Assembly: GCF_008014675.1 (NCBI RefSeq)
Contig: NZ_VOXD01000018.1
Location: 62,001-126,000, forward strand
DNA length: 64,000 nt
Direction of reading: 5' to 3'
DNA from: Neolewinella aurantiaca
Lineage (GTDB): Bacteria > Bacteroidota > Bacteroidia > Chitinophagales > Saprospiraceae
The notes beneath the pieces were generated by a model, which saw only the letters and a list, made by a program, of their open reading frames with translations, did not search any database and was not told the DNA's origin. Below, one piece after another: positions 4,234 to 60,131 of this stretch. Position numbers and translations under genes: made by a program. Every line of letters starts with the position of its first letter. Position 1 is the first letter of the stretch.

Positions 4234-6774
4234 ATGATTAAATACTTTCCCGTGAATTATAGGGCACTTGGCATTTTGCTTACGGTTATTTTCTTTTACA
4301 CTGCGGCCAGCGTAGCTCAGGATACCCTCCGCATTACAGATGCTGCCGGGGTGGCATTGCCCTTCGCCAATGTCCTCCTTTACCCTGAAGAAATCAGTAT
4401 TGGCCCTGCTGATGAAGAAGGTCGGGTGATCCTGAAGGATGATTTTGCTCCCGAGCAGGTATTCCGGATCAGTTACCTGGGCTACGAAGACGTACTGGCG
4501 ATGTACCGGGACCTGCAATTTGCGGGCTTTGTGTACGCTTTCGATGATACCCAAATCACGCTTGCCATGCCGGAAGTGATTGGCCGGCGAAACGAGACAG
4601 CCAGGGACATGCCCTACCAAACCGAAGCCATCGGACGCTCCGTGATCGCCAAAGCGCAATCGCTGACCACCGCCGATGCACTGGCTGACCTAAGCGGAGT
4701 TTTCGTACAAAAATCTCAATTCGGGGGAGGTAGCCCGATTGTGCGCGGCTTTGAGGCCAACCGGGTTTTGCTGGTGGTTGACGGTGTGCGGATGAACAAC
4801 GCTATTTTCCGGAACGGCCACCTCCAGAACGCCATCTCGGTTGATCCACTGGCCCTGGACCGATTGGAACTGATATACGGAGCCGGTGCGCTGGCCTACG
4901 GCAGCGATGCGATAGGTGGAGTGGTTCACTTCAGGACACAGCAACCCGATTTCCATGCGGGAACGCAGGATGCAAAGTGGGGAGTTCAGGGAGCAATGTC
5001 GGTAAGTTCAGCGGCTAAGGCATTTAGCCAGGGAGTAAGAATCGAATATAGCCGCCGCAACTTTGCCGCGCTCACCTTGCTCTCAACGAGCTTCACCTCG
5101 GACCTGCGCGCCGGCGCCCAAAGACCCTCTGAATACCCCGCCTTTGGTCTCCGGAACGAATACGTCAGCAGGATCGACGGCCAGGACCGGATACTGCGAA
5201 ACGAACGGCCCAACGAACAGATCGGCACCGGATACAACCAGTACAATTTCCTCCAAAAACTCCGCTTTCGCCTGAAAAACGAGTTAGAGCTCAACGCCAA
5301 CCTCCAGTACTCCACCACCTCCGACATCCCCCGTTACGACGCCCTGACTGAGCGCCGCAACGACCAGCTCCGCTGGGCCCGCTGGGATTACGGGCCGCAG
5401 GCCCGGGCGCTGGCTTCCCTCCAACTGAGCGACCGCAGGGCTACAAAAATCTATGATATTGCCACCTATCTGATCAGTCATCAATTTATTCAGGAAGACC
5501 GTATACAGCGTCCGTTCGGAGACCCGCAGGAAGAAAACAGCCTCGTTGATGTTCATGCTACAAACCTGCAAACCGATTTCACCAAAGCCCTCAACGAGCT
5601 AACCTTTCATTATGGTTTCGATCTGCGGTACGATCAGGTAAAGAGCGAAACTTTCCTGCGGAACATCGAGACAGGAGACATCACGACTGTTGGCCAGAAT
5701 AGCCGCTACCCCAGCGCCGGAAGCAGTCTTCTCTCGGGCGGGTTGTACGCTGAGGCCAGCCAGCAATTGGGAGCAAACCTCCAGCTGCGCGGAGGTGTGC
5801 GTTGGAGCCGGCAGCGCCTCAACGCCCGCTTCGGGGCGGACGACCCCGTTGCCTGGCCCGAGGCCTACCTCGCGGGCATCAGCAATACCGAAAGCGCGGT
5901 TACCGGTACGCTCGGCCTGATCCACGATACCGGCAACCATCGCCTGCGGACGCTGTTCGCTCAGGGATTCAGGGCACCGAACATCGACGATTTCGCCAAG
6001 TTCCGCGAAAGCAATGGTTTCATTCAGGTTCCCAACCCCGCCCTGCAGCCCGAACGGTCGAATACCCTGGAGGCGGGATACCAATACGTGTCGGCGGACA
6101 ATGCCTTCCGGGCGGGTGCTACGGTGTACCATACCTGGCTCAGCGACGCCATCATACGCCGTGACGGTACGTTACCCGACGGGAGCCGGTCCTTTGTGAG
6201 TCGGGGAGATACACTTTTTGTTCAGACGAACGTAAACGCCGAGCGTGCTAAGGTCTATGGTTTCGACGTCGATGCCTCGCTGAAGTTCATCACCAACTGG
6301 TGGATCGAGACCGCCTTCCACTTTGTCCGCGGCCGCCGCGACCAGCTTGCTCCGGACGGAAACGTACTAACCCTGCCCCAGGACCACATTCCCCCGCCAT
6401 ACGGGAATACAGGGGTCGGCTGGGCCCGTGGCCCCTGGGACCTGAGTTTCCGGCTCCGTTACCAGTTCGCCAAAGAAGTCAAAGACTACGCCGTGGGTGA
6501 AATCTCCGGAAACCTGGCCGACGGGTACATCCTGGACCGTTCCGGAACAGCAGACAATCTTGAACTGACTCCTCTGGCCAGCGACGGTCAGTTCAACTAC
6601 ACGGGAGTCTACAGTTGGTGGACGGCAAACCTGTACGCTGAGTACCGACTCAACGATCACTTTACCTTCCGCATAAAAGGAGAGAACCTGCTGGACCGGC
6701 ATTACCGGACCTTCGGCAGCGGCGTCTCCGCCGCCGGCTTAGACCTTGGGATCGGACTCAGTTGCCAATGGTAA
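4234..6774 (+). CDS. TonB-dependent outer-membrane receptor
   Basis: Outer-membrane beta-barrel that imports a ligand using TonB energy. The chosen ATG at 4234 follows a purine-rich stretch at 4221-4228; a TTG one codon earlier is less likely. Order of parts: signal peptide ending near SVAQ, a carboxypeptidase-regulatory-like beta-sandwich of about 75 residues (TDAAGVALPFANVLL), a plug domain (ADLSGVFVQKSQFGGGSPIVRGFEANRVL, then DGVRMNNAIFRNG), and a barrel of roughly 600 residues that ends in an aromatic residue (SCQW). The barrel carries the family phrases FRAPNIDDFAKFRE and NLLDRHYRTFGSG. This resembles haem/siderophore/cobalamin-type receptors more than SusC. No substrate gene lies beside it, so the ligand is unknown. 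Confidence 0.93.
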   Translation: MIKYFPVNYRALGILLTVIFFYTAASVAQDTLRITDAAGVALPFANVLLYPEEISIGPADEEGRVILKDDFAPEQVFRISYLGYEDVLAMYRDLQFAGFVYAFDDTQITLAMPEVIGRRNETARDMPYQTEAIGRSVIAKAQSLTTADALADLSGVFVQKSQFGGGSPIVRGFEANRVLLVVDGVRMNNAIFRNGHLQNAISVDPLALDRLELIYGAGALAYGSDAIGGVVHFRTQQPDFHAGTQDAKWGVQGAMSVSSAAKAFSQGVRIEYSRRNFAALTLLSTSFTSDLRAGAQRPSEYPAFGLRNEYVSRIDGQDRILRNERPNEQIGTGYNQYNFLQKLRFRLKNELELNANLQYSTTSDIPRYDALTERRNDQLRWARWDYGPQARALASLQLSDRRATKIYDIATYLISHQFIQEDRIQRPFGDPQEENSLVDVHATNLQTDFTKALNELTFHYGFDLRYDQVKSETFLRNIETGDITTVGQNSRYPSAGSSLLSGGLYAEASQQLGANLQLRGGVRWSRQRLNARFGADDPVAWPEAYLAGISNTESAVTGTLGLIHDTGNHRLRTLFAQGFRAPNIDDFAKFRESNGFIQVPNPALQPERSNTLEAGYQYVSADNAFRAGATVYHTWLSDAIIRRDGTLPDGSRSFVSRGDTLFVQTNVNAERAKVYGFDVDASLKFITNWWIETAFHFVRGRRDQLAPDGNVLTLPQDHIPPPYGNTGVGWARGPWDLSFRLRYQFAKEVKDYAVGEISGNLADGYILDRSGTADNLELTPLASDGQFNYTGVYSWWTANLYAEYRLNDHFTFRIKGENLLDRHYRTFGSGVSAAGLDLGIGLSCQW

Positions 6775-52858: not shown

Positions 52859-53266
52859 ATGGCCAAGAAGAAAAAGCAGTCTTACTCGACCGGTAATGCA
52901 CCGGACCCCGACAATCCGTTCGCAGCGCTGGCTGGCCTTGGGGCCAGCCTCCCTCCACCGCCCGACAACCTTCCGGAACCGGAAGAGGACGAAGAACACG
53001 GACTGAGCAAAGCCGAAAAAGCCAGCATGTCGTTGCGCATCCACCTCGACCGCAAGAACAGAAGAGGAAACGAGGCAACCATCATCACGGGATTTACCGG
53101 ACCGGAAGACGAAATGAAAGCGCTCGGAAAACTACTGAAAACCAAATGTGGCGTTGGTGGCTCCGCTAAAGGAGAAGAAATCATCGTGCAGGGCAACAAG
53201 CGCGATAAGGTATTGGAAATACTGCTGAGCGAAGGATATAAAGGAGCCAGGAAAGCAGGGGGGTAA
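52859..53266 (+). CDS. yciH: SUI1/eIF1-like translation factor (YciH)
   Basis: 135 residues. A low-complexity N-terminus rich in Lys then Pro and Glu (MAKKKKQSYSTG, LPPPPDNLPEPEEDEE) precedes the SUI1 domain, about residues 57-135 (LRIHLDRKNRRGNEATIITGFTGPEDEMKALGKLLKTKCGVGGSAKGEEIIVQGNKRDKVLEILLSEGYKGARKAGG). The TKCGVGGSAK and VQGN boxes are the family signature. In bacteria YciH influences start-codon fidelity in vitro; its physiological role is not firmly established. Single gene. Confidence 0.92.
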   Translation: MAKKKKQSYSTGNAPDPDNPFAALAGLGASLPPPPDNLPEPEEDEEHGLSKAEKASMSLRIHLDRKNRRGNEATIITGFTGPEDEMKALGKLLKTKCGVGGSAKGEEIIVQGNKRDKVLEILLSEGYKGARKAGG

Positions 53267-53386
53267 TCCGTTACTCTACCGCCTTTCGGGCCCGCGAGCG
53301 CCTACATCCTTTAAAGCTTAGCAGGTTCACCGCACCTATGGGAGAAAAAACCGTTACACCAGAATACTACTGACTAACTTGCTCTC

Positions 53387-54382
53387 ATGCTTCTAACCTG
53401 GATCGGCTTTTTCGTCTTCGTGGCGTTGCTACTCTTCCTCGACCTTTTTGTCCTGAACAAAAAGGACCACGTTCCCCGTACCCGGGAGGCATTGCTGTGG
53501 ACCGCGATGTGGACCACCATTGGTTTGGGTTTCAGTGGTTTCATTTACCTCGCCTACCAAAACGGATGGGTCGATTCGAACCTGGAACCCAAGCAAGCTG
53601 TGATCACTTACCTGACCGGATACCTGGTAGAGCTCAGCCTGAGCATGGACAATGTGTTTGTGATTGCCCTCATTTTCGCGTACTTCAAAGTGCCGGCGAT
53701 CTACCAACACCGCGTTTTATTCTGGGGCATCATGGGCGCCGTTTTCTTCCGGTTGGCGATGATTCTGGCGGGAGTCTACCTGCTGGAGAAGTTCGACTGG
53801 ATGTTTTACGTTTTCGGACTATTACTCCTGTACAGTGCCGTGAAGATGCTGGGAGAATCGGCCGACATTCACCCCTCAGACAACCCGATCATCAAGTTTG
53901 TGAAAAGGATGATCCCCGTAACGGACGATTACCACGGGCACGACTTTTTCGTACATATCGATGGCAAGCGGGCGGCTACCCCACTCTTCATCGCGCTCAT
54001 CATTGTGGAGACGACCGACGTGATTTTCGCGGTAGACTCCATCCCCGCCATTCTGGGCATAACGACAGACTCCTTTCTGGTTTTCAGTTCAAACATCCTG
54101 GCTATACTGGGTCTGCGGTCGCTTTACTTTGTCCTTAGTTCGATGATTGACAAGTTCGAATACCTGAAGTACAGCCTGGCGCTGATTCTGGCTTTCGTAG
54201 GGGTAAAAATGCTGCTGCATGAAGTTTGGCACCCCGAAGACTGGCTTTCGCTGGTGGTTATTTTCGGTCTGCTCGCTGCCGGGATACTGATCTCATTAAC
54301 CCGCCCTGCACCTGCGCCCGCGCCCAAAGACCCAATAAAGAACCCGATGATCGACGAAGTACCCGAAGATCGCCAAATCTAA
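53387..54382 (+). CDS. TerC-family membrane protein
   Basis: 331 residues with about eight to nine membrane segments. The family boxes are SLSMDNVFVIALIFAYFKVPAIYQHRVLFWGIMGA and IIVETTDVIFAVDSIPAILGITTDSFLVFSSNILAILGLRSLYF, with Asp residues inside membrane segments. TerC proteins act in metal-ion export (manganese) and membrane-linked folding of exported proteins; the name comes from tellurite resistance, which cannot be assumed. The C-terminal tail is Pro/Ala-rich (RPAPAPAPKDPIKN) and this stretch is a copy of the dispersed 18-mer, so the repeat adds to the tail. Confidence 0.93.
   Translation: MLLTWIGFFVFVALLLFLDLFVLNKKDHVPRTREALLWTAMWTTIGLGFSGFIYLAYQNGWVDSNLEPKQAVITYLTGYLVELSLSMDNVFVIALIFAYFKVPAIYQHRVLFWGIMGAVFFRLAMILAGVYLLEKFDWMFYVFGLLLLYSAVKMLGESADIHPSDNPIIKFVKRMIPVTDDYHGHDFFVHIDGKRAATPLFIALIIVETTDVIFAVDSIPAILGITTDSFLVFSSNILAILGLRSLYFVLSSMIDKFEYLKYSLALILAFVGVKMLLHEVWHPEDWLSLVVIFGLLAAGILISLTRPAPAPAPKDPIKNPMIDEVPEDRQI
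54308..54325 (+). repeat. Dispersed 18-mer, CC variant, at the 3' end of the TerC gene
   Basis: GCACCTGCGCCCGCGCCC, coding APAPAP in the C-terminal tail of the TerC-family protein. Confidence 0.65.
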
Positions 54383-54444
54383 AGCAGCCCTGAAGATTTT
54401 TTTTGCCCAGGAAAGGATTCGACGCAAAGATGCTATTTTGCACC

Positions 54445-56121
54445 ATGCAACGTATCCTGATTCCCCTCCTCTTACTGGCTCCGACTTTCTTCCTCTTTGC
54501 TCAGTCAGACTCGATACTTCTGGTAAAAGCAATGGAAGAATTTGCCGACTGGAACCCGCAGAGCAATGGCTTGATGTGGTCGGCAACCGATGCGAATTCC
54601 GCCTCTGCTGAAGTTAAAGAACTACGTGCGCTAAGAGACAGAATCCCTCCTGAAACAGCTCTCTCCCCGAGCAGTCGCCTGAACCGGAACATTCTGCTCC
54701 ACATTCTCGACGACGAGATTTTCCGAAGGGAATTCGGGGCGTATCAGTTTCCGCTGGATGCCGAAGGGGGCTTTCTGGCGGGCATCGTTTACCGCGTGAT
54801 CGGGCAACGGGTAAGAGGAAAGGAATCGCTGGAACGCTACACCAAACTGATCGAACAGGTCAGCCCCTGGTTCGATCGCCAAATTGCCTCCATGCGCGCG
54901 GGCCTGGCCGCGGGCAAAACCGATCCCCGCCTCGTGGTGGAAAATTGTATCGCCCAGATCGACCGGCAACTCGCTACTCCGGTCGACGAGAGTATCTTTT
55001 TGCAACCCGTTCGCAACGATGCGGCGCACACGCAGGTGCTGAGCAAGTTGGTGGAGCAAAGTACTTACCCCGCATACCGTCGCCTCCGGAAATTCCTTGC
55101 CGAAGACTACCTGCCCAACCTTCGCGCCGGCATCGGTATATCAGAAATCACCGATGGAAAAGCGTTCTACCGCCAACGCGTCCGCTTTTTCACTACCGAT
55201 GATGTGACTCCGGAGGAAGTCTTTGCCACCGGACAGGCCGAGGTCGCCCGCATCCGGGCCGAAATGGAAGCCATCATCACCAAAACCGGCTTCGAAGGCT
55301 CCTTCGCCGATTTCTTACAGTTCCTTCGTACCGATGAGCAGTTCTACCCCAAGAGCGCCGAAGAACTCCTGAGCCGTGCCGCCTGGATCACGAAACGAAT
55401 GGAAGGCAAACTTCCCCAATACTTTAATCATCTGCCACGGATGCCCCTCACGGTCAGCCCGGTCCCCTCTGCGCTCGCCCCCAATTACACTACCGGCCGG
55501 TACAGCCCGGGGAGCTACCGGAGCCGTAAAGCGGGAGCGTTCTGGGTAAACACTTACAACCTCCCCAGTCGGCCCTACTATGTTTTGCCAGCTCTTGCCC
55601 TCCACGAGGGCGTGCCCGGTCATCACACCCAGATGATGCTCGCCGCAGAGATGGAAGACGTGCCCGCTTTTCGTCAAAACCTCTACCTCTCCGCCTTCGG
55701 CGAAGGTTGGGCGCTCTACTGCGAGTACCTGGGTAAGGAAGCAGGGATGTACGAAACAGACTACGAGGAGTTTGGCCGCCTCGTCTACGAAATGTGGCGT
55801 GCCTGCCGCCTGGTCGTAGATCCCGGAATGCACTACTTTGGTTGGAGCCGCGATGAAGCAGTAGACTTTCTTACCTCCAACACCGCTCTTTCCCTCCACG
55901 AAGTCAATACCGAGATCGACCGTTACATCGGCTGGCCCGGACAGGCTGTGTCCTACAAAATGGGGGAACTGAAAATCCGGGAGCTGCGCAAAATGGCGGA
56001 GGCCGAGTTGGGAGAAAAATTCGACCTGCCATCTTTTCACGACCTGGTCCTCAGCAACGGAGCAGTTACGATGCAGGGGCTGGAAGGTTTGGTGCGGGAA
56101 TGGATTGAGGGTAGGAATTAG
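54445..56121 (+). CDS. DUF885 family exported metallohydrolase-like protein
   Basis: 558 residues from the ATG at 54445, giving a signal peptide (RILIPLLLLAPTFFLFAQ). The family core is ALHEGVPGHHTQMMLAAE (H387, E388, H392, H393), whose HExxxGHH pattern is the DUF885 hallmark and resembles a metal-binding site. Other typical phrases are FGEGWALYCEYLGKEAGMY and YIGWPGQAVSYKMGELKIRELR. Probable periplasmic peptidase, but activity is not proven for most members. The stop codon TAG (56119-56121) and the two codons before it lie within the first units of the CTAG repeat array, so the natural C-terminus may have been changed by that insertion. Confidence 0.88.
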   Translation: MQRILIPLLLLAPTFFLFAQSDSILLVKAMEEFADWNPQSNGLMWSATDANSASAEVKELRALRDRIPPETALSPSSRLNRNILLHILDDEIFRREFGAYQFPLDAEGGFLAGIVYRVIGQRVRGKESLERYTKLIEQVSPWFDRQIASMRAGLAAGKTDPRLVVENCIAQIDRQLATPVDESIFLQPVRNDAAHTQVLSKLVEQSTYPAYRRLRKFLAEDYLPNLRAGIGISEITDGKAFYRQRVRFFTTDDVTPEEVFATGQAEVARIRAEMEAIITKTGFEGSFADFLQFLRTDEQFYPKSAEELLSRAAWITKRMEGKLPQYFNHLPRMPLTVSPVPSALAPNYTTGRYSPGSYRSRKAGAFWVNTYNLPSRPYYVLPALALHEGVPGHHTQMMLAAEMEDVPAFRQNLYLSAFGEGWALYCEYLGKEAGMYETDYEEFGRLVYEMWRACRLVVDPGMHYFGWSRDEAVDFLTSNTALSLHEVNTEIDRYIGWPGQAVSYKMGELKIRELRKMAEAELGEKFDLPSFHDLVLSNGAVTMQGLEGLVREWIEGRN

Positions 56122-56213
56122 GGAACTAGGAACTAGGGAACTAGGAATTAGGGAACTAGGGAACTAGGGAACTAGGAATTAGGGAACTAGGAAACTAGGA
56201 ACTAGGGAATTGA
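56112..56213 (+). repeat. Left CTAG heptad/octad array
   Basis: Twelve units containing CTAG or TTAG begin at 56118 and recur at 7- or 8-base steps to 56205 (typical units GAACTAG and GGAACTAG). The array starts inside the last codons of the DUF885 gene. Confidence 0.85.
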
Positions 56214-56409
56214 GGGGGGGGTAACGGAGACATTACAACTTCTACAACCTCAACAAAAAAACGACATAAACACCTAACCATCAATATTTTATACCCTAAA
56301 AAAGAGACTGTAAAGTCGTTTATAAACGCATATATACGTTAGTATTCGTTTAAATGACGACTAAATGGATTCCTTTATCGGATGTTTGCGTAACACCAAT
56401 ACATTCACC

Positions 56410-56790
56410 ATGCATTCGATGAATAGCTTCACAGACTGGCTGGCTTTTTCAAAAGGAGAGGACTTAGCCCATGATGTTTTCTTACTGAGTAAGCACTTTC
56501 CTAAAGAGGAAACATACAGTCTGTCGAGCCAAATCCGAAGATCAACACGATCTGTATGTAGTAACCTTGCCGAGAGTCATGCAAAAAGACGTTACCCCAA
56601 ACACTTTTACGCCAAATTAACCGATGCCTTAGGAGAGAACAATGAAACACTAGTCTGGCTAAGGTTCGCACGACGATGTAAGTATATTGACAATAAACAA
56701 TACCGGCAATTCGAGGCGAAAAACGCAGAAGTCGGTAAACTGCTGAACTACATGATTACCAACCCCAAAAAATTTGGCCTCCACCAGTAA
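56410..56790 (+). CDS. Four-helix-bundle protein of the 23S rRNA-intervening-sequence (S23/IVP) family
   Basis: 126 residues from the ATG at 56410; a further ATG at 56419 fits the usual family start (MNSFTDWLAFSKGEDLAHDVF). Core phrases: LLSKHFPKEETYSLSSQIRRSTRSVCSNLAESHAKRRYPKHFYAKLTDALGENNETLVWLRFARRC. These match the S23-type family first found inside 23S rRNA intervening sequences, and related to the Avd accessory protein of diversity-generating retroelements. The protein forms a bundle of four helices and is basic; it may bind nucleic acid. No reverse transcriptase is present. The gene is AT-richer than its neighbours and enclosed by inverted CTAG arrays. Confidence 0.88.
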   Translation: MHSMNSFTDWLAFSKGEDLAHDVFLLSKHFPKEETYSLSSQIRRSTRSVCSNLAESHAKRRYPKHFYAKLTDALGENNETLVWLRFARRCKYIDNKQYRQFEAKNAEVGKLLNYMITNPKKFGLHQ

Positions 56791-56800
56791 AGCCTGGTTC

Positions 56801-56927
56801 TCCAGCTCCTAGTTCCCTAGTTTCTAGTTCCCTAGTTTCCAGTTTCTAGTTCCCTAGTTTCTAACTCCTAGCTCCCTAGTTTCTAGTTCGCTAGTTTCTA
56901 GTTCCCTAGCTTCCAGTTCCTAGCTCC
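56801..56927 (-). repeat. Right CTAG heptad/octad array
   Basis: Sixteen units with CTAG (or CCAG/CTAA variants) at 7- or 8-base steps from 56809 to 56920, inverse in sense to the left array. It ends 7 bases before the stop codon of the convergent TRAP-binding gene. Confidence 0.85.
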
Positions 56928-56933
56928 TTCCCG

Positions 56934-58040
56934 CTACATCATTTCGCCGTAGAAGACCGACTCCGTCATGGTTGCCCACGGTACAGCTTTCCGCCGAAAC
57001 TCCTGAATGGAAGCGTAGACTTTTTCAGCAAAGGGGTCCGAGGCGGCGTATTCCCCGATAACTTCATCGGCCGCGATGCGGGCGGCGTCGATCAGTTCCT
57101 TTGGGAAGTTGGCTATTGTAACTCCGTCGGTGGCTTCTATCTTTTCCAGGTACTCCGCGTTTTTTGCTTCGAGTTCCGAGAGCGTGAACATGTTGATGTA
57201 ATGCGTAGCTACTTCGAATATCCGCTGGAGGTCTTCCGGTAGTTCTTCGTACTTCTCTTTATTCACGAAAAACTCGAAATTGGTGCCCGGCTCATGCCAG
57301 CCGGGCGAGTAGTAATACTTTGCGATTTCATGGAATCCCATCACATAATCGTGGTAAGGCCCAACCCACTCCGTTGCGTCAATGATGCCACGCTCGAGAC
57401 CGGTATACAACTCACCGGCGGGAAGCAACACCGGTGTGCCGCCCAGGCGCTCCAGCACCCGGCCGCCCAGGCCGGGCATCCGCATCTTCAGTCCTTTAAA
57501 GTCTTCTACAGAATCGATCCGCCGGTTGAACCAGCCGCCCATCTGAACGCCGGTGTTACCACCGGCGAACGGAACGAGGTTGTAACCTGCGTAGAGTTCC
57601 CGCCACAGCTCCATCCCACCGCCACTGAGCAACCAAGCGTTCATTTGCTGTGCGTTAAAACCAAAGGGGAAACCAGCAAAAAACTGAGCCGCAGGTGCTT
57701 TTCCTGCCCAGTAGTAAGGGCATCCGCTGCCAATTTCAGCAGCGCCCTGACGGACAGCATCGAACGCTTGTAAAGGCGGTACAAGTTCACCGCCGCCGTA
57801 AACGGTGATATTCAATCGTCCGCCAGACATAGTACGGCACATATCCGCCAGCATCTGGCAGCCCTCCCCCAGCACAGGGAAGCCGGGAGGCCATGTAGTT
57901 ACCATTTTCCAGTTATAGACCTGGCCGCTCACCGTAGCGGCTCCCGTCTGAGCGTGGCCTTTGCCACCGATTAAACGAAGGAAAAGCGGCAGACCGATGG
58001 TACCGGCCGCAAGAGACTTAAAAAAGGTAGAACGTTGCAT
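56934..58040 (-). CDS. TRAP transporter substrate-binding protein (TakP-like)
   Basis: 368 residues from the ATG at 58040; the longer frame to 58118 has no signal character. The signal peptide (RSTFFKSLAAGTIGLPLFL) resembles a twin-arginine-less variant of the usual one. The DctP fold is shown by WKMVTTWPPGFPVLGEGCQMLADM, GGGELVPPLQAFDAVRQGAAEIGSGCPYYWAGKAPAAQFFAGFPFGF, GNTGVQMGGWFNR, LKMRMPGLGGRVLERLGGTPVLLPAGELYTGLERGIIDATEWVGPYHDYVMGF and YYYSPGWHEPGTNFEFFVN. This is close to the TakP type, which binds 2-oxo acids. The DctQ and DctM membrane genes are not here, so the transporter is incomplete in this window. Last gene before the cassette region. Confidence 0.9.
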   Translation of the reverse strand: MQRSTFFKSLAAGTIGLPLFLRLIGGKGHAQTGAATVSGQVYNWKMVTTWPPGFPVLGEGCQMLADMCRTMSGGRLNITVYGGGELVPPLQAFDAVRQGAAEIGSGCPYYWAGKAPAAQFFAGFPFGFNAQQMNAWLLSGGGMELWRELYAGYNLVPFAGGNTGVQMGGWFNRRIDSVEDFKGLKMRMPGLGGRVLERLGGTPVLLPAGELYTGLERGIIDATEWVGPYHDYVMGFHEIAKYYYSPGWHEPGTNFEFFVNKEKYEELPEDLQRIFEVATHYINMFTLSELEAKNAEYLEKIEATDGVTIANFPKELIDAARIAADEVIGEYAASDPFAEKVYASIQEFRRKAVPWATMTESVFYGEMM

Positions 58041-58169
58041 GACGCTGAGCTTGTGAAGAGGGCGACTAACCTGGTTGGCGCCCTGTGAAGATGTGCAATC
58101 TACGGATTTTCGTGGCACTGTTTACAGTCCACTTAGGCGTCCATATCTCTACGAAAACAAATCTTTCCG

Positions 58170-58187
58170 GGGCGGGCACGCAGGTGC
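58170..58187 (-). repeat. Dispersed 18-mer, TG variant
   Basis: Minus strand GCACCTGCGTGCCCGCCC. The same TG-CCCGCC form occurs at 63081-63098, suggesting a sub-type. Confidence 0.5.
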
Positions 58188-58259
58188 CAGGTACGTTTCA
58201 AAGGAGGATGTCGTGCTCCGTATACACCAGTTGAGCGGACTATATCCGACAAACCCGGT

Positions 58260-58380
58260 GGCGTATACCATACTACTCTACATTTTTGATTTTCCACCTC
58301 TCCCCTTTCCTCTCCAACAAGCTTCGCCTAAGGCTCAGCGGAGAGGGAGCCAAAAATGTAGAGTAGTGTGGGCGTATACC
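58260..58380. mobile_element. MITE-like insertion with 10-bp flanking duplication (element B)
   Basis: GGCGTATACC occurs exactly at 58260-58269 and again at 58371-58380. Between them, 101 bases start and end with inverted arms that pair perfectly over 17 bp (58272-58288 with 58351-58367) and imperfectly further out. The middle holds a pyrimidine-rich stretch and a CCTCTCC/GGAGAGG hairpin. It carries no ORF. The flanking duplication is the classical sign of a transposition event. Confidence 0.75.
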
Positions 58381-58398
58381 TGAAAGTAGCTTGGGTAT

Positions 58399-58504
58399 AA
58401 TCAACGGGTGCAAACCAGATTGTCGCGATTGCTCCTCCCCAGCGCAGCGGTGTGGGGAGGCAGGGAGGGGATCGAGCGACAATCTGATTTGCGCCCAATC
58501 AACG
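58399..58504. mobile_element. MITE-like insertion, family 1, copy C
   Basis: Arms at 58406-58426 and 58476-58496 match at 19 of 21 positions and contain GCAAACCAGATTGTCGC or a close relative, shared with copy A at 24488-24592. AATCAACG flanks both sides (58399-58406 and 58497-58504), consistent with a 7- or 8-bp target duplication. An inner 8-bp hairpin CCTCCCCA/TGGGGAGG lies at 58434-58459. It stands 18 bases from element B. Together with the rest of 58041-58680, this spacer holds no gene; 58505-58680 is AT-rich and empty. Confidence 0.75.
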
Positions 58505-58680
58505 TCAGTATTTTGTTACGCTCAATGAATACGCCACCTTATAAAAAATATTATTTTTTTTCATTAAAAACCGAACGTAGAATATTAGCCCTGCGTTTTA
58601 TTACCAAAGAAACCGCGGTTATTAACCCGCTGAACTTCAAAGCATTAGTAAACAGGCACATCGCCAAAAATTCAGATAAA

Positions 58681-59136
58681 ATGAGTACCTCAAGTAATCA
58701 AATCAAAACACTTAATCACCTTATCACCACCCTGTATGATGGCGAGAACGGATATAAAGAAGCGGCTGAAGAAGTAGAAAGCCCTACCCTGTCCACCCGC
58801 TTCCGTCAGTTGGCGCAACAGCGCTACGATTTCGGTCACGAGATCAAGCCTTACATCAAGTCGCTCGGAGGCGAAGTGGATAAAGGTGGCAGTGTAAGCG
58901 CTAATCTCCACCGCGTCTGGATGGACCTCAAAAGTGCCGTTAGCGGTAATGATGAAGCTGCCATCCTCAACGAATGTATCCGCGGAGAAGAGAGCGCCGT
59001 CAAAGCCTACGCCGAAGCTCTGGAGGGCGACACGCTCACCGGCCCGGTCCGTGAAACGGTATCTAACCAGATGACGAAGATTTCTTCTACGCTGGCCGAC
59101 ATTCGCAGAATGGCCGATTCTTTCGAGAAAGTATAA
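58681..59136 (+). CDS. PA2169/DUF2383 family four-helix-bundle protein
   Basis: 151 residues from the ATG at 58681; a longer open frame from 58408 runs through the MITE-like repeat and is not credible. The core is LNHLITTLYDGENGYKEAAEEV, FRQLAQQRYDFGHEIKPYIKSLGGEV, SVSANLHRVWMDLKSAVSGNDEAAILNECIRGEESAVKAYAEAL. This is the ferritin-like, DUF2383 type found in stress-response genes; some carry metal-binding residues (E, E, H) within the helices. A good terminator follows, so it is a single-gene unit. Role in stress is inferred from the family. Confidence 0.9.
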   Translation: MSTSSNQIKTLNHLITTLYDGENGYKEAAEEVESPTLSTRFRQLAQQRYDFGHEIKPYIKSLGGEVDKGGSVSANLHRVWMDLKSAVSGNDEAAILNECIRGEESAVKAYAEALEGDTLTGPVRETVSNQMTKISSTLADIRRMADSFEKV

Positions 59137-59166
59137 TCGCCAGTATCCCTAAGGATTTAAGAATTT

Positions 59167-59196
59167 GCCCCTCGTGCTCTGCGCGAGGGGCTTTTT
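59167..59196 (+). terminator. Rho-independent terminator after the PA2169-type gene
   Basis: 8-bp GC-rich stem GCCCCTCG/CGAGGGGC (59167-59174 with 59184-59191), then TTTTT. Confidence 0.9.
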
Positions 59197-59273
59197 GTTT
59201 GGGAGAAGTCCGGGGTAACAAAGGAAGAGTGCCTAAAAGCCTATCTTCGCCTTCCTAAAATTATCTCTTTCCC

Positions 59274-60131
59274 GTGTCCCAAAGTGCTATTCTCCTCATC
59301 CATTGTCCGGACCAGCCCGGCCTGGTCGCCCTCGTCACCGAATTCGTTCATAAAAACCGGGGAAATATTCTGGATCTCGACCAACACGTGGATCAGGACC
59401 TAAACCATTTTTTCATGCGCATCGAATGGGACCTGACCAACTTCGTAATCCCACGGGAAAAAATAAACGATTACTTCGAAACCCTGATCGGGGCTGCTTA
59501 CGACATGAAATGGTCGCTCAAGTTCACCGACAGAAAGCCCCGGATCGCGCTTTTTGTAAGCAAGGCAAGCCACTGCCTTTACGACATCCTGCAGCGCCAT
59601 GGTACCGGAGAATTCGACTGTGAAATCCCCGCCATCATCTCTAACCACGAACAACTCCGTTACATTGCCGAGCGGTTTGAGATTCCCTTTTACCACATCC
59701 CGATCACCAAAGAAACAAAAGCAGCGCAGGAAGCCAAAACCAAAGAGCTGCTCGAAGATTTCGACGTTGACTTTATAGTCCTTGCCCGGTACATGCAGAT
59801 CTTATCAGATGACTTCTGCACTCATTTCAGTCATCGGATCATCAACATCCATCATTCTTTCCTGCCGGCATTTAAAGGTGCCCGACCGTATCATAGTGCC
59901 TTCACCCGTGGCGTTAAACTCATCGGAGCTACCAGCCACTACGTTACCGCCGACCTTGACGAAGGCCCTATCATCGCTCAGGATGTAGCCAGAGTAAGCC
60001 ACCGCGACGGCATCAACGACCTCAAGCGGATTGGTAAGGATGTAGAAAAGCGCGTGCTCAGCCGCGCGATTTACCTCCAGCTCAAGCACCGTGTACTACC
60101 CTTCGGTAACCGGACCGTAATCTTCAACTAA
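59274..60131 (+). CDS. purU: Formyltetrahydrofolate deformylase
   Basis: 285 residues from the GTG at 59274. An N-terminal ACT domain ([36 protein letters not shown]) is followed by a formyltransferase domain: [20 protein letters not shown], and the catalytic Asn-His-Asp set N191, H193 ([10 protein letters not shown]) and D229 (ADLDEGPII). It splits 10-formyl-THF to formate and THF and supplies formate for purine synthesis and one-carbon balance. Single gene ahead of lolD, with 37 bases between, so the two may be co-transcribed, without a functional link. Confidence 0.95.

Follow-up and report, generated by a model that had tools for sequence, protein, structure and literature searches.

Repetitive extragenic palindromes (REP) and bacterial interspersed mosaic elements (BIME) are dispersed, gene-less inverted units built of single palindromes, and the transposase that accompanies them, RAYT, is of the Y1 type. 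The intervening sequences (IVS) of 23S rRNA genes are organised differently. In Coxiella the IVS carries tandem heptamers (GACAGAT) upstream of an S23 open reading frame (ORF), with a copy number that varies between strains (PMC4990558). A mobile role for the IVS ORF was proposed earlier (Ralph and McClelland 1993, as cited in PMC4990558), and what the S23-bearing rRNA elements do is said to be unclear (PMC4990558). Heptamer repeats have also been reported in their own right, as GGGAATC in Xanthomonas and GGGGA(T/C)T in Nostoc, with 186 arrays in X. campestris, 70 convergent cases and a mean distance of 28 nt from the 5′ ORF (PMC4692102). TAACTGA arrays are found in the Beggiatoaceae, Cyanobacteria and Bacteroidetes, and the mechanism of their transfer was not found (PMC4679880). 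The main text of PMC4692102 and PMC4679880 contains no mention of S23 or four-helix-bundle genes, and no paper linking S23 genes with heptamer arrays was found in searches of the PMC open-licence library, which omits most subscription papers. The subject here is a locus where the two occur together, in a 64,000-nucleotide stretch of the Neolewinella aurantiaca genome (contig NZ_VOXD01000018.1, positions 62,001 to 126,000; hereafter the window), in which a single S23/IVP gene is enclosed by two convergent arrays of 7- and 8-bp repeats.

This block is best explained, with a probability of roughly 0.7, as one copy of a small, single-gene mobile element whose S23 protein would recognise the array word and spread gene-less arrays in trans. 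The parts of the element, in window coordinates, are as follows.

56112..56216, + strand: left array of 13 units anchored on TAG, which recur every 7 or 8 bp; its G-rich strand reads inward, and it extends over the final codons and stop of DUF885, the gene upstream
56315..56361, + strand: AT-rich imperfect palindrome GTCGTTTATAAACGCATATATACG...CGTTTAAATGACGAC, just 5′ of the S23 ORF (read by eye)
56365..56790, + strand: S23/IVP four-helix-bundle ORF, 141 amino acids counted from the first ATG (a later ATG may be the true start)
56793..56927, + strand: right array, whose 17 anchors follow one another every 7 or 8 bp; it is C-rich on the + strand and inverted relative to the left array

The ORF matches PF05635 (E 9.6e-29), the bAvd-like family PF22296 (E 1.5e-10) and TIGR02436, and the spacing between the anchors (TAG or CTA/CCAG) is always 7 or 8 bp. 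The sequence-only reading of this DNA had described convergent 7/8-base arrays around one S23/IVP gene, with twelve units on the left and sixteen on the right, and this anatomy was confirmed, the numbers corresponding to 12 steps (13 anchors) and 16 steps (17 anchors). Its statement that CTAG stands in nearly every unit was slightly too strong, as the left array contains 9 and the right array 13. With Tandem Repeats Finder (TRF) the left array gave a best score of 148 (periods 8, 15 and 23) and the right array 175 (56801-56927; periods 15, 22, 37 and 52), with the inverted similarity starting from 56793; no other TRF row in the window reaches 50. Regions with a TRF score of at least 60 number 12 in 463 kb of the same genome (window included), and periods of 7, 8 or 14 were seen in five of them, namely the two window arrays and three with another word. 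The first-listed inverted pair between the arrays is 45 nt long at 84%. No Rfam match was found in 53000-60000, and no transposase domain was recognised in the sole ORF of the unit with Pfam and NCBIfam profiles. The genome is 6.0 Mb in size and the element is located on contig C15 of our numbering. The palindrome upstream of the ORF contains repeated ACG-TATA-CGT blocks, and a similar motif is present 5′ of L001, L023, L028 and other S23 genes of the genus; it may serve as a promoter or as another binding site.

The arrangement is not confined to the window. Of 296 genomes sampled from the phylum, 232 have S23 genes. Two sets of S23 loci, all re-oriented to the S23 strand for the flank counts, were compared. 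The first comprised 94 loci from this genome and its relatives (34, and 60 further ones chosen mostly by E-value order with a few skipped; seven weaker loci added later stay outside the counts) and was extended by 10 loci from cyanobacterial plasmids and 30 from a phylum-wide search, 133 of the 134 being scored. The second started from 80 named loci, of which 65 were scored after removal of six duplicates and nine with short flanks or no match. In S23 flanks the autocorrelation at lags 7, 8 and 14 is 0.28-0.30 on both sides, compared with 0.25-0.26 in coding sequence and far flanks; high values were also seen at lags 15 and 21, yet these are blurred by the codon periodicity of the far flanks. 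For the 91 loci that have both flanks, the upstream flank was aligned with the reverse complement of the downstream flank. All 90 swapped partners were outscored at 47 of them, and the 95th percentile of the swaps was exceeded at 61, compared with 17 in direct orientation. A match was called strong at an alignment score of 33 (first-set swap 95th percentile 25, 99th percentile 36), which was reached by 74 of the 133 loci of the extended first set and by 27 of 65 in the second. The swap 95th percentile of the second set is 35, plausibly raised by related genes sharing words, and was exceeded by 21 of 65 loci, with none of 65 in direct orientation. Overall, 101 of 198 loci have a strong inverted flank match, including 36 of 50 from the genus and 9 of 10 from cyanobacteria (the atypical L145 among them), so that S23 genes elsewhere do not generally lack such arrays; a general lack had been named in the sequence-only reading as grounds for refuting its mobile-cassette interpretation. 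The G-rich strand reads inward (left array with G > C) in 73 of the 74 strong loci of the first set.

The flanks of four loci (L081, L083, L109 and L113) are very strongly alike in direct rather than inverted orientation. Short palindromes such as GCTTCGC interrupt the arrays of L090, L030, L107, L117 and L126, and in L117 different palindromes occupy the same point of the left and right arrays.

The array word differs from locus to locus (CTAGGGAA in the window; GGAGTCG, GGTTGCAG, GGTCTTT, GCAGGGG and others elsewhere) and follows the S23 protein rather than the genome. Across the 74 strong loci, the more identical two S23 proteins from different genomes are, the more alike their words (rho 0.288, 2649 pairs, none of 500 permutations as high); below 50% S23 identity the correlation is weaker (0.098, 1 of 500 permutations). 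The 52 within-genome pairs are no more alike in word than between-genome pairs of equal protein identity. For pairs at different sites, sorted strictly as those with no similarity between their outer flanks, the mean word cosine is 0.20 at 60-80% S23 identity (81 pairs) compared with 0.036 below 35% (1441 pairs); without the cyanobacteria these values are 0.17 (68 pairs) and 0.038 (1148 pairs). Proteins that are 60-80% identical thus share words at unrelated sites, and therefore the gene and both arrays change place together. At one shared site (L158, L162 and L177) the word has changed on both sides together, each left array fitting its own right array best (scores 36, 40 and 36; off-diagonal at most 26); a second shared-site group (L034, L117 and L126) is less sharp, with two members tying.

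Arrays without a gene carry the same words. The window word occurs at 11 further places in its own genome (31 pattern matches including the window, compared with 2 for the reversed control); by eye, nine of these are inverted pairs and two are one-sided, and none overlaps the five S23 places of the genome. Three other 7- or 14-bp arrays in the 463 kb carry CGACTCC or its complement, which is the word of a different S23 locus (L003). Five words were counted as exact two-unit matches across 21 genomes of the genus, G000 being the genome of the window, and occur in 4, 2, 4, 1 and 7 of them. CGACTCC is restricted to G000 (111) and G011 (24), the two genomes with an S23 gene beside a CGACTCC array (L003 and L089, the latter with the array at G011:C74:5039-5080 adjoining the S23 gene at 5217). 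GGTTGCAG was found in G002 (77), G003 (177), G005 (170) and G010 (46), with intact cognate S23 genes in G003 (L121) and G005 (L110 and L120) and a relic in G002, and CTAGTT in G000 (19), G008 (11), G005 (2) and G010 (1). For two words the distribution was predicted beforehand. GGTCTTTG was expected in G019 (N. antarctica) only, and this proved exact (50 matches, none in the other 20 genomes). GTTGCTGG was expected in G001 and occurs there (24) but also in G015 (44), G016 (36), G020 (12), G013 (6), G005 (1) and G007 (1), so this prediction was correct only in part. The word distribution suggests that gene-less arrays are mobilised in trans.

Three further features of the gene-less arrays and relics were observed. 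The genome with CTAGTT arrays and no known cognate, G008, contains a GTTGC-clade S23 relic with a CAGTTGT-type word (L291, on G008:C252). A composite of about 100 bp, consisting of CGACTCC arrays and a GC-rich spacer, is present in several tandem copies in the genome of the window (L298, G000:C10:82600-83450). Two gene-less arrays (L035 and L303) adjoin or enclose, by eye, a terminator-like hairpin with a T run.

Relatives of the element on cyanobacterial plasmids are mobile, as seen from two clean empty sites and from differences in gene-less arrays. At site A, in plasmid pNSMS101 of Nostoc sp. MS1 (L143), two genes are separated by a unit of the form GCAGGGG...S23...CCCCTGC; in Trichormus variabilis ATCC 29413, Nostoc NIES-3756 and N. 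cf. commune SO-36 the gap between these genes is 11-12 bp. Site B is filled in three plasmids (L144, L185 and L186), where the unit is just within the 5′ end of an integrase gene that restarts at a new ATG behind it, and empty in two (L183 and L184), which have the integrase gene without the unit; in the annotation the S23 gene of L185 is no more than a 222-bp ORF, and its match falls in two pieces. At both sites the additional sequence also includes some 30-60 bp outside the right array. In MS1 a gene-less array is found in frame inside a plasmid ORF, with none at that point in T. variabilis and NIES-3756, and these two have gene-less arrays at another point of the same ORF, where MS1 has unrelated sequence.

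Most units lie directly behind a gene. At 76 of the 101 strong loci, no more than 60 nt separate the beginning of the unit from the stop of a co-directional ORF (a stop-to-stop frame of about 120 codons or more), and at 68 no more than 20 nt, compared with 7.8% of control positions 450-1000 nt upstream. Several units split gene pairs that are otherwise compact: NADH dehydrogenase chain 3 and the 20-kDa subunit (L014), MraY and MurD (L012), and enoyl-CoA hydratase and thiolase (L008 and L010). In four genomes (L006, L008, L009 and L010) the S23 gene precedes a thiolase gene (by Pfam for L008 and L010, by eye for the others), and it is perhaps a long-resident orthologue in these. The neighbours of the window element are listed below.

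54403..56121, + strand: DUF885 gene (Pfam PF05960), whose last codons and TAG stop lie inside the left array
56934..58118, − strand: convergent gene for a DctP-type substrate-binding protein (Pfam PF03480)
53387..54382, + strand: TerC-like gene upstream, which with DctP marks the orthologous locus in Neolewinella agarilytica (tblastn 77% over 300 amino acids); the name TerC is our assumption

The left array begins within the last codons of DUF885, the stop of which is at 56119-56121, and the right array ends 6 nt short of the DctP stop (56934-56936). In none of the 14 other genus genomes that bear DUF885 is DctP within 1.5 kb of it, so no clean empty site is available for the window copy; the search for an empty site suggested in the sequence-only reading thus succeeded for the Nostocales plasmid relatives and not for this copy. 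In N. agarilytica (G002), homologues of TerC and DctP (77% and 81% amino acid identity, respectively) flank a 64-residue S23 relic, the eight best matches of which are proteins of the GTTGC clade or its sister L133, and the right array is of the GTTGC type. The relic is of a different clade and therefore the window element is not shared there; units from two S23 clades have arrived at this spot. The same gene with the same arrays is thus not found at the orthologous place in all relatives, and the mobile-cassette interpretation offered in the sequence-only reading is supported.

The S23 gene is under purifying selection, with dN/dS (the ratio of nonsynonymous to synonymous divergence) between 0.03 and 0.34 in 9 of 14 pairs (four with dS above 1.8; the pairs are not independent), dS being saturated in the other five. 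Six residues stand out in 200 aligned domains, with a conservation of 99% for Q56, E70 and E94 and of 93-96% for S63, R59 and N67; five of the six are spaced 3-4 apart on one stretch, like the polar face of a helix. Avd is a pentamer, and in keeping with this the entries for two relatives of solved structure, 2rld and 2gsc, list five chains apiece. A HEPN-type RNase was considered for the window protein (R75-H80, R-x4-H, which we take to be the motif of these enzymes) and dropped, as the cyanobacterial proteins inspected keep the arginines without such a histidine. In a search for a phage vehicle, an S23 relative was found in none of 50,697 phage records, and 34 pattern matches in viral contigs were not confirmed.

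The inward polarity, the pairing of word and protein and the dispersed gene-less arrays fit a protein that recognises the word and draws two convergent arrays together. In the mechanism that is proposed, S23, probably a pentameric four-helix bundle, would bind the 7/8-bp-phased word at both ends and bring the two convergent arrays together. An enzyme encoded outside the element would do the cutting and joining, moving or copying the unit of array, gene and inverted array to a new place. The unit would typically land directly after the stop codon of a gene read in the same direction, and S23 could be expressed there by read-through transcription. Gene-less inverted arrays of the same word would be moved in trans and spread over the genome like REPs or miniature inverted-repeat transposable elements (MITEs).

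Several observations weigh against this interpretation. Strong inverted matches are absent from the flanks examined at 97 of the 198 scored loci; among the cyanobacterial loci, L149 has no inverted match, and in L145 the arrays are by eye G-rich on both sides in the same orientation. Polarity is weaker in the second set (21 of 27), for which the score of 33 lies below the swap 95th percentile of 35. In one same-site group (L112, L118 and L124) a left array fits the right array of a sister better than its own, and in another (L006, L008, L009 and L010) the own left-right pairing is best in only two of four. Some genomes carry words without a known cognate among the S23 genes fetched, which were not all of them: CTAGTT in G008, GTTGCTGG in G015, G016 and G013, and GGTTGCAG in G010, which is 55% complete. 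Two further sites, C and D, differ between relatives but have junctions less clean than those of A and B, and a target-site duplication was not recognised at any of the sites A to D. S23 itself has no recognised catalytic domain.

An RNA-level element is an unlikely explanation. It would consist of an RNA stem around the S23 ORF, cut by RNase III as in the 23S rRNA IVS and spread through RNA and a reverse transcriptase. The sense RNA of the block is predicted to form one long left-right stem of about 100 bp (z −12.15 from 20 shuffles; −9.47 for the antisense), the rRNA IVS of Coxiella, which RNase III excises, ends in a 28-bp stem and carries tandem heptamers 5′ of S23p (PMC4990558), and profile matches relate S23 to the Avd protein of diversity-generating retroelements (DGRs). 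G.U mismatches outnumber A.C mismatches (114 to 78), which is mildly positive for a selected RNA, but the signs per locus (23 and 15, with 16 ties) do not support it. Duplex energies favour the sense strand in 50 and the antisense strand in 44 of 101 elements (p 0.16), and the sense strand in 7 of 18 gene-less arrays. As there is no strand preference in the pairing, the complementarity is apparently maintained in the DNA repeats and not as a selected RNA stem, and the strand test lends no support to the folding sites of the sequence-only reading, if these are taken as RNA. RVT_1 matches are absent from 21 of 40 genomes (that of the window and 39 relatives), including the S23-rich G001, G007, G011, G016, G020 and G032. 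A resident reverse transcriptase as a necessary partner was rejected on its absence from several S23-bearing genomes.

Somewhat less probable again is a passive cassette, in which the arrays spread by slippage, recombination or gene conversion while S23 has another role and merely rides along. Heptamer arrays are known as simple-sequence repeats ascribed to slippage (Mrazek, cited in PMC4679880), and by eye the array length differs between the orthologous L023 and L024, the right side of L024 being cut by a contig end. Slippage does not explain the matched inverted words or the inward G-rich strand, nor does it explain words that track the S23 clade over the genome or are limited to one or two cognate-bearing genomes.

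It is doubtful that the arrays are mobilised by a Y1 transposase (RAYT or IS200 type) or another resident transposase to which S23 is an accessory. Dispersed, inverted gene-less units behind genes do resemble REP/BIME and RAYT, and Y1_Tnp was found in 35 of the 40 genomes. Of the five genomes without a match, G018, G027 (six S23 matches), G031 and G037 bear S23 and are more than 90% complete, and a resident Y1 transposase was on this account rejected as a necessary partner. The sole ORF of the window unit has no transposase domain, which still allows an enzyme acting in trans, and the integrase beside S23 at sites B and C is either the gene that was interrupted or a neighbour, and the empty relatives have it too. 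Least probable, and improbable outright, are terminators or other expression signals next to an immobile S23 gene, as although most strong loci lie directly behind stop codons and some gene-less arrays adjoin or enclose a hairpin, different words occupy similar places, arrays are present or absent between relatives and gene-less arrays lie in frame inside an ORF.

The preferred reading, a single-gene element with S23 as its recognition protein, points to a mobile element without a recombinase, transposase or reverse transcriptase of any known kind. If S23 reads the word, then the word of each protein can be read from its own flanks and the number of gene-less arrays can be predicted from the S23 genes of a genome. 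Reports of heptamer arrays go back a long way and name no known source, and a link to S23 makes both this question and the function of the S23-bearing rRNA elements testable; it also offers a reason for the presence of S23 ORFs inside rRNA intervening sequences. In a wider form, the chances of which we regard as even, S23/IVP proteins would confer the specificity of a new class of mobile DNA with one word per protein clade, many of the heptamer arrays of Bacteroidota, Cyanobacteria, Xanthomonas and Beggiatoaceae would be gene-less derivatives, and the S23-bearing rRNA IVS would be copies that landed in rRNA genes.

Compared with the described systems, the element shares with the 23S rRNA IVS of Coxiella and Leptospira one S23 ORF between inverted ends able to form a long stem. 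Unlike these, the window unit lies between the protein genes DUF885 and DctP, the ends of units of its type are long phased arrays, gene-less arrays of the same word are dispersed and relatives have filled and empty sites. Like REP/BIME-RAYT, such units have dispersed, mostly intergenic, gene-less inverted repeats and a gene enclosed by the same repeats, but the enclosed protein is S23 and not a Y1 transposase, and the repeats are 7/8-bp tandem arrays and not single palindromes. The filled and empty sites of MITEs and insertion sequences are found for the Nostocales relatives; the only ORF of the window element is free of a transposase domain. The intergenic tandem units of 7 bp (7 or 8 in the window) are those of heptamer simple-sequence repeats, except that the array word is here tied to the S23 protein. 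The window S23 is a four-helix bundle related to the Avd of DGRs (NCBIfam DivGenRetAVD, E 7.1e-8, 32.7 bits; Pfam bAvd-like), yet it scores below the 80-bit Avd cut-off and the block contains no reverse transcriptase. The unit would count as a further form of the rRNA IVS if any S23 gene with a stem is called an IVS. Because it lies outside rRNA and has neither a Y1 or other transposase nor a reverse transcriptase, and because a pairing of word and protein with dispersed arrays was not found described for the IVS, the element is placed in a category of its own, apart from IVS, REP/RAYT, MITEs and insertion sequences, and DGRs.

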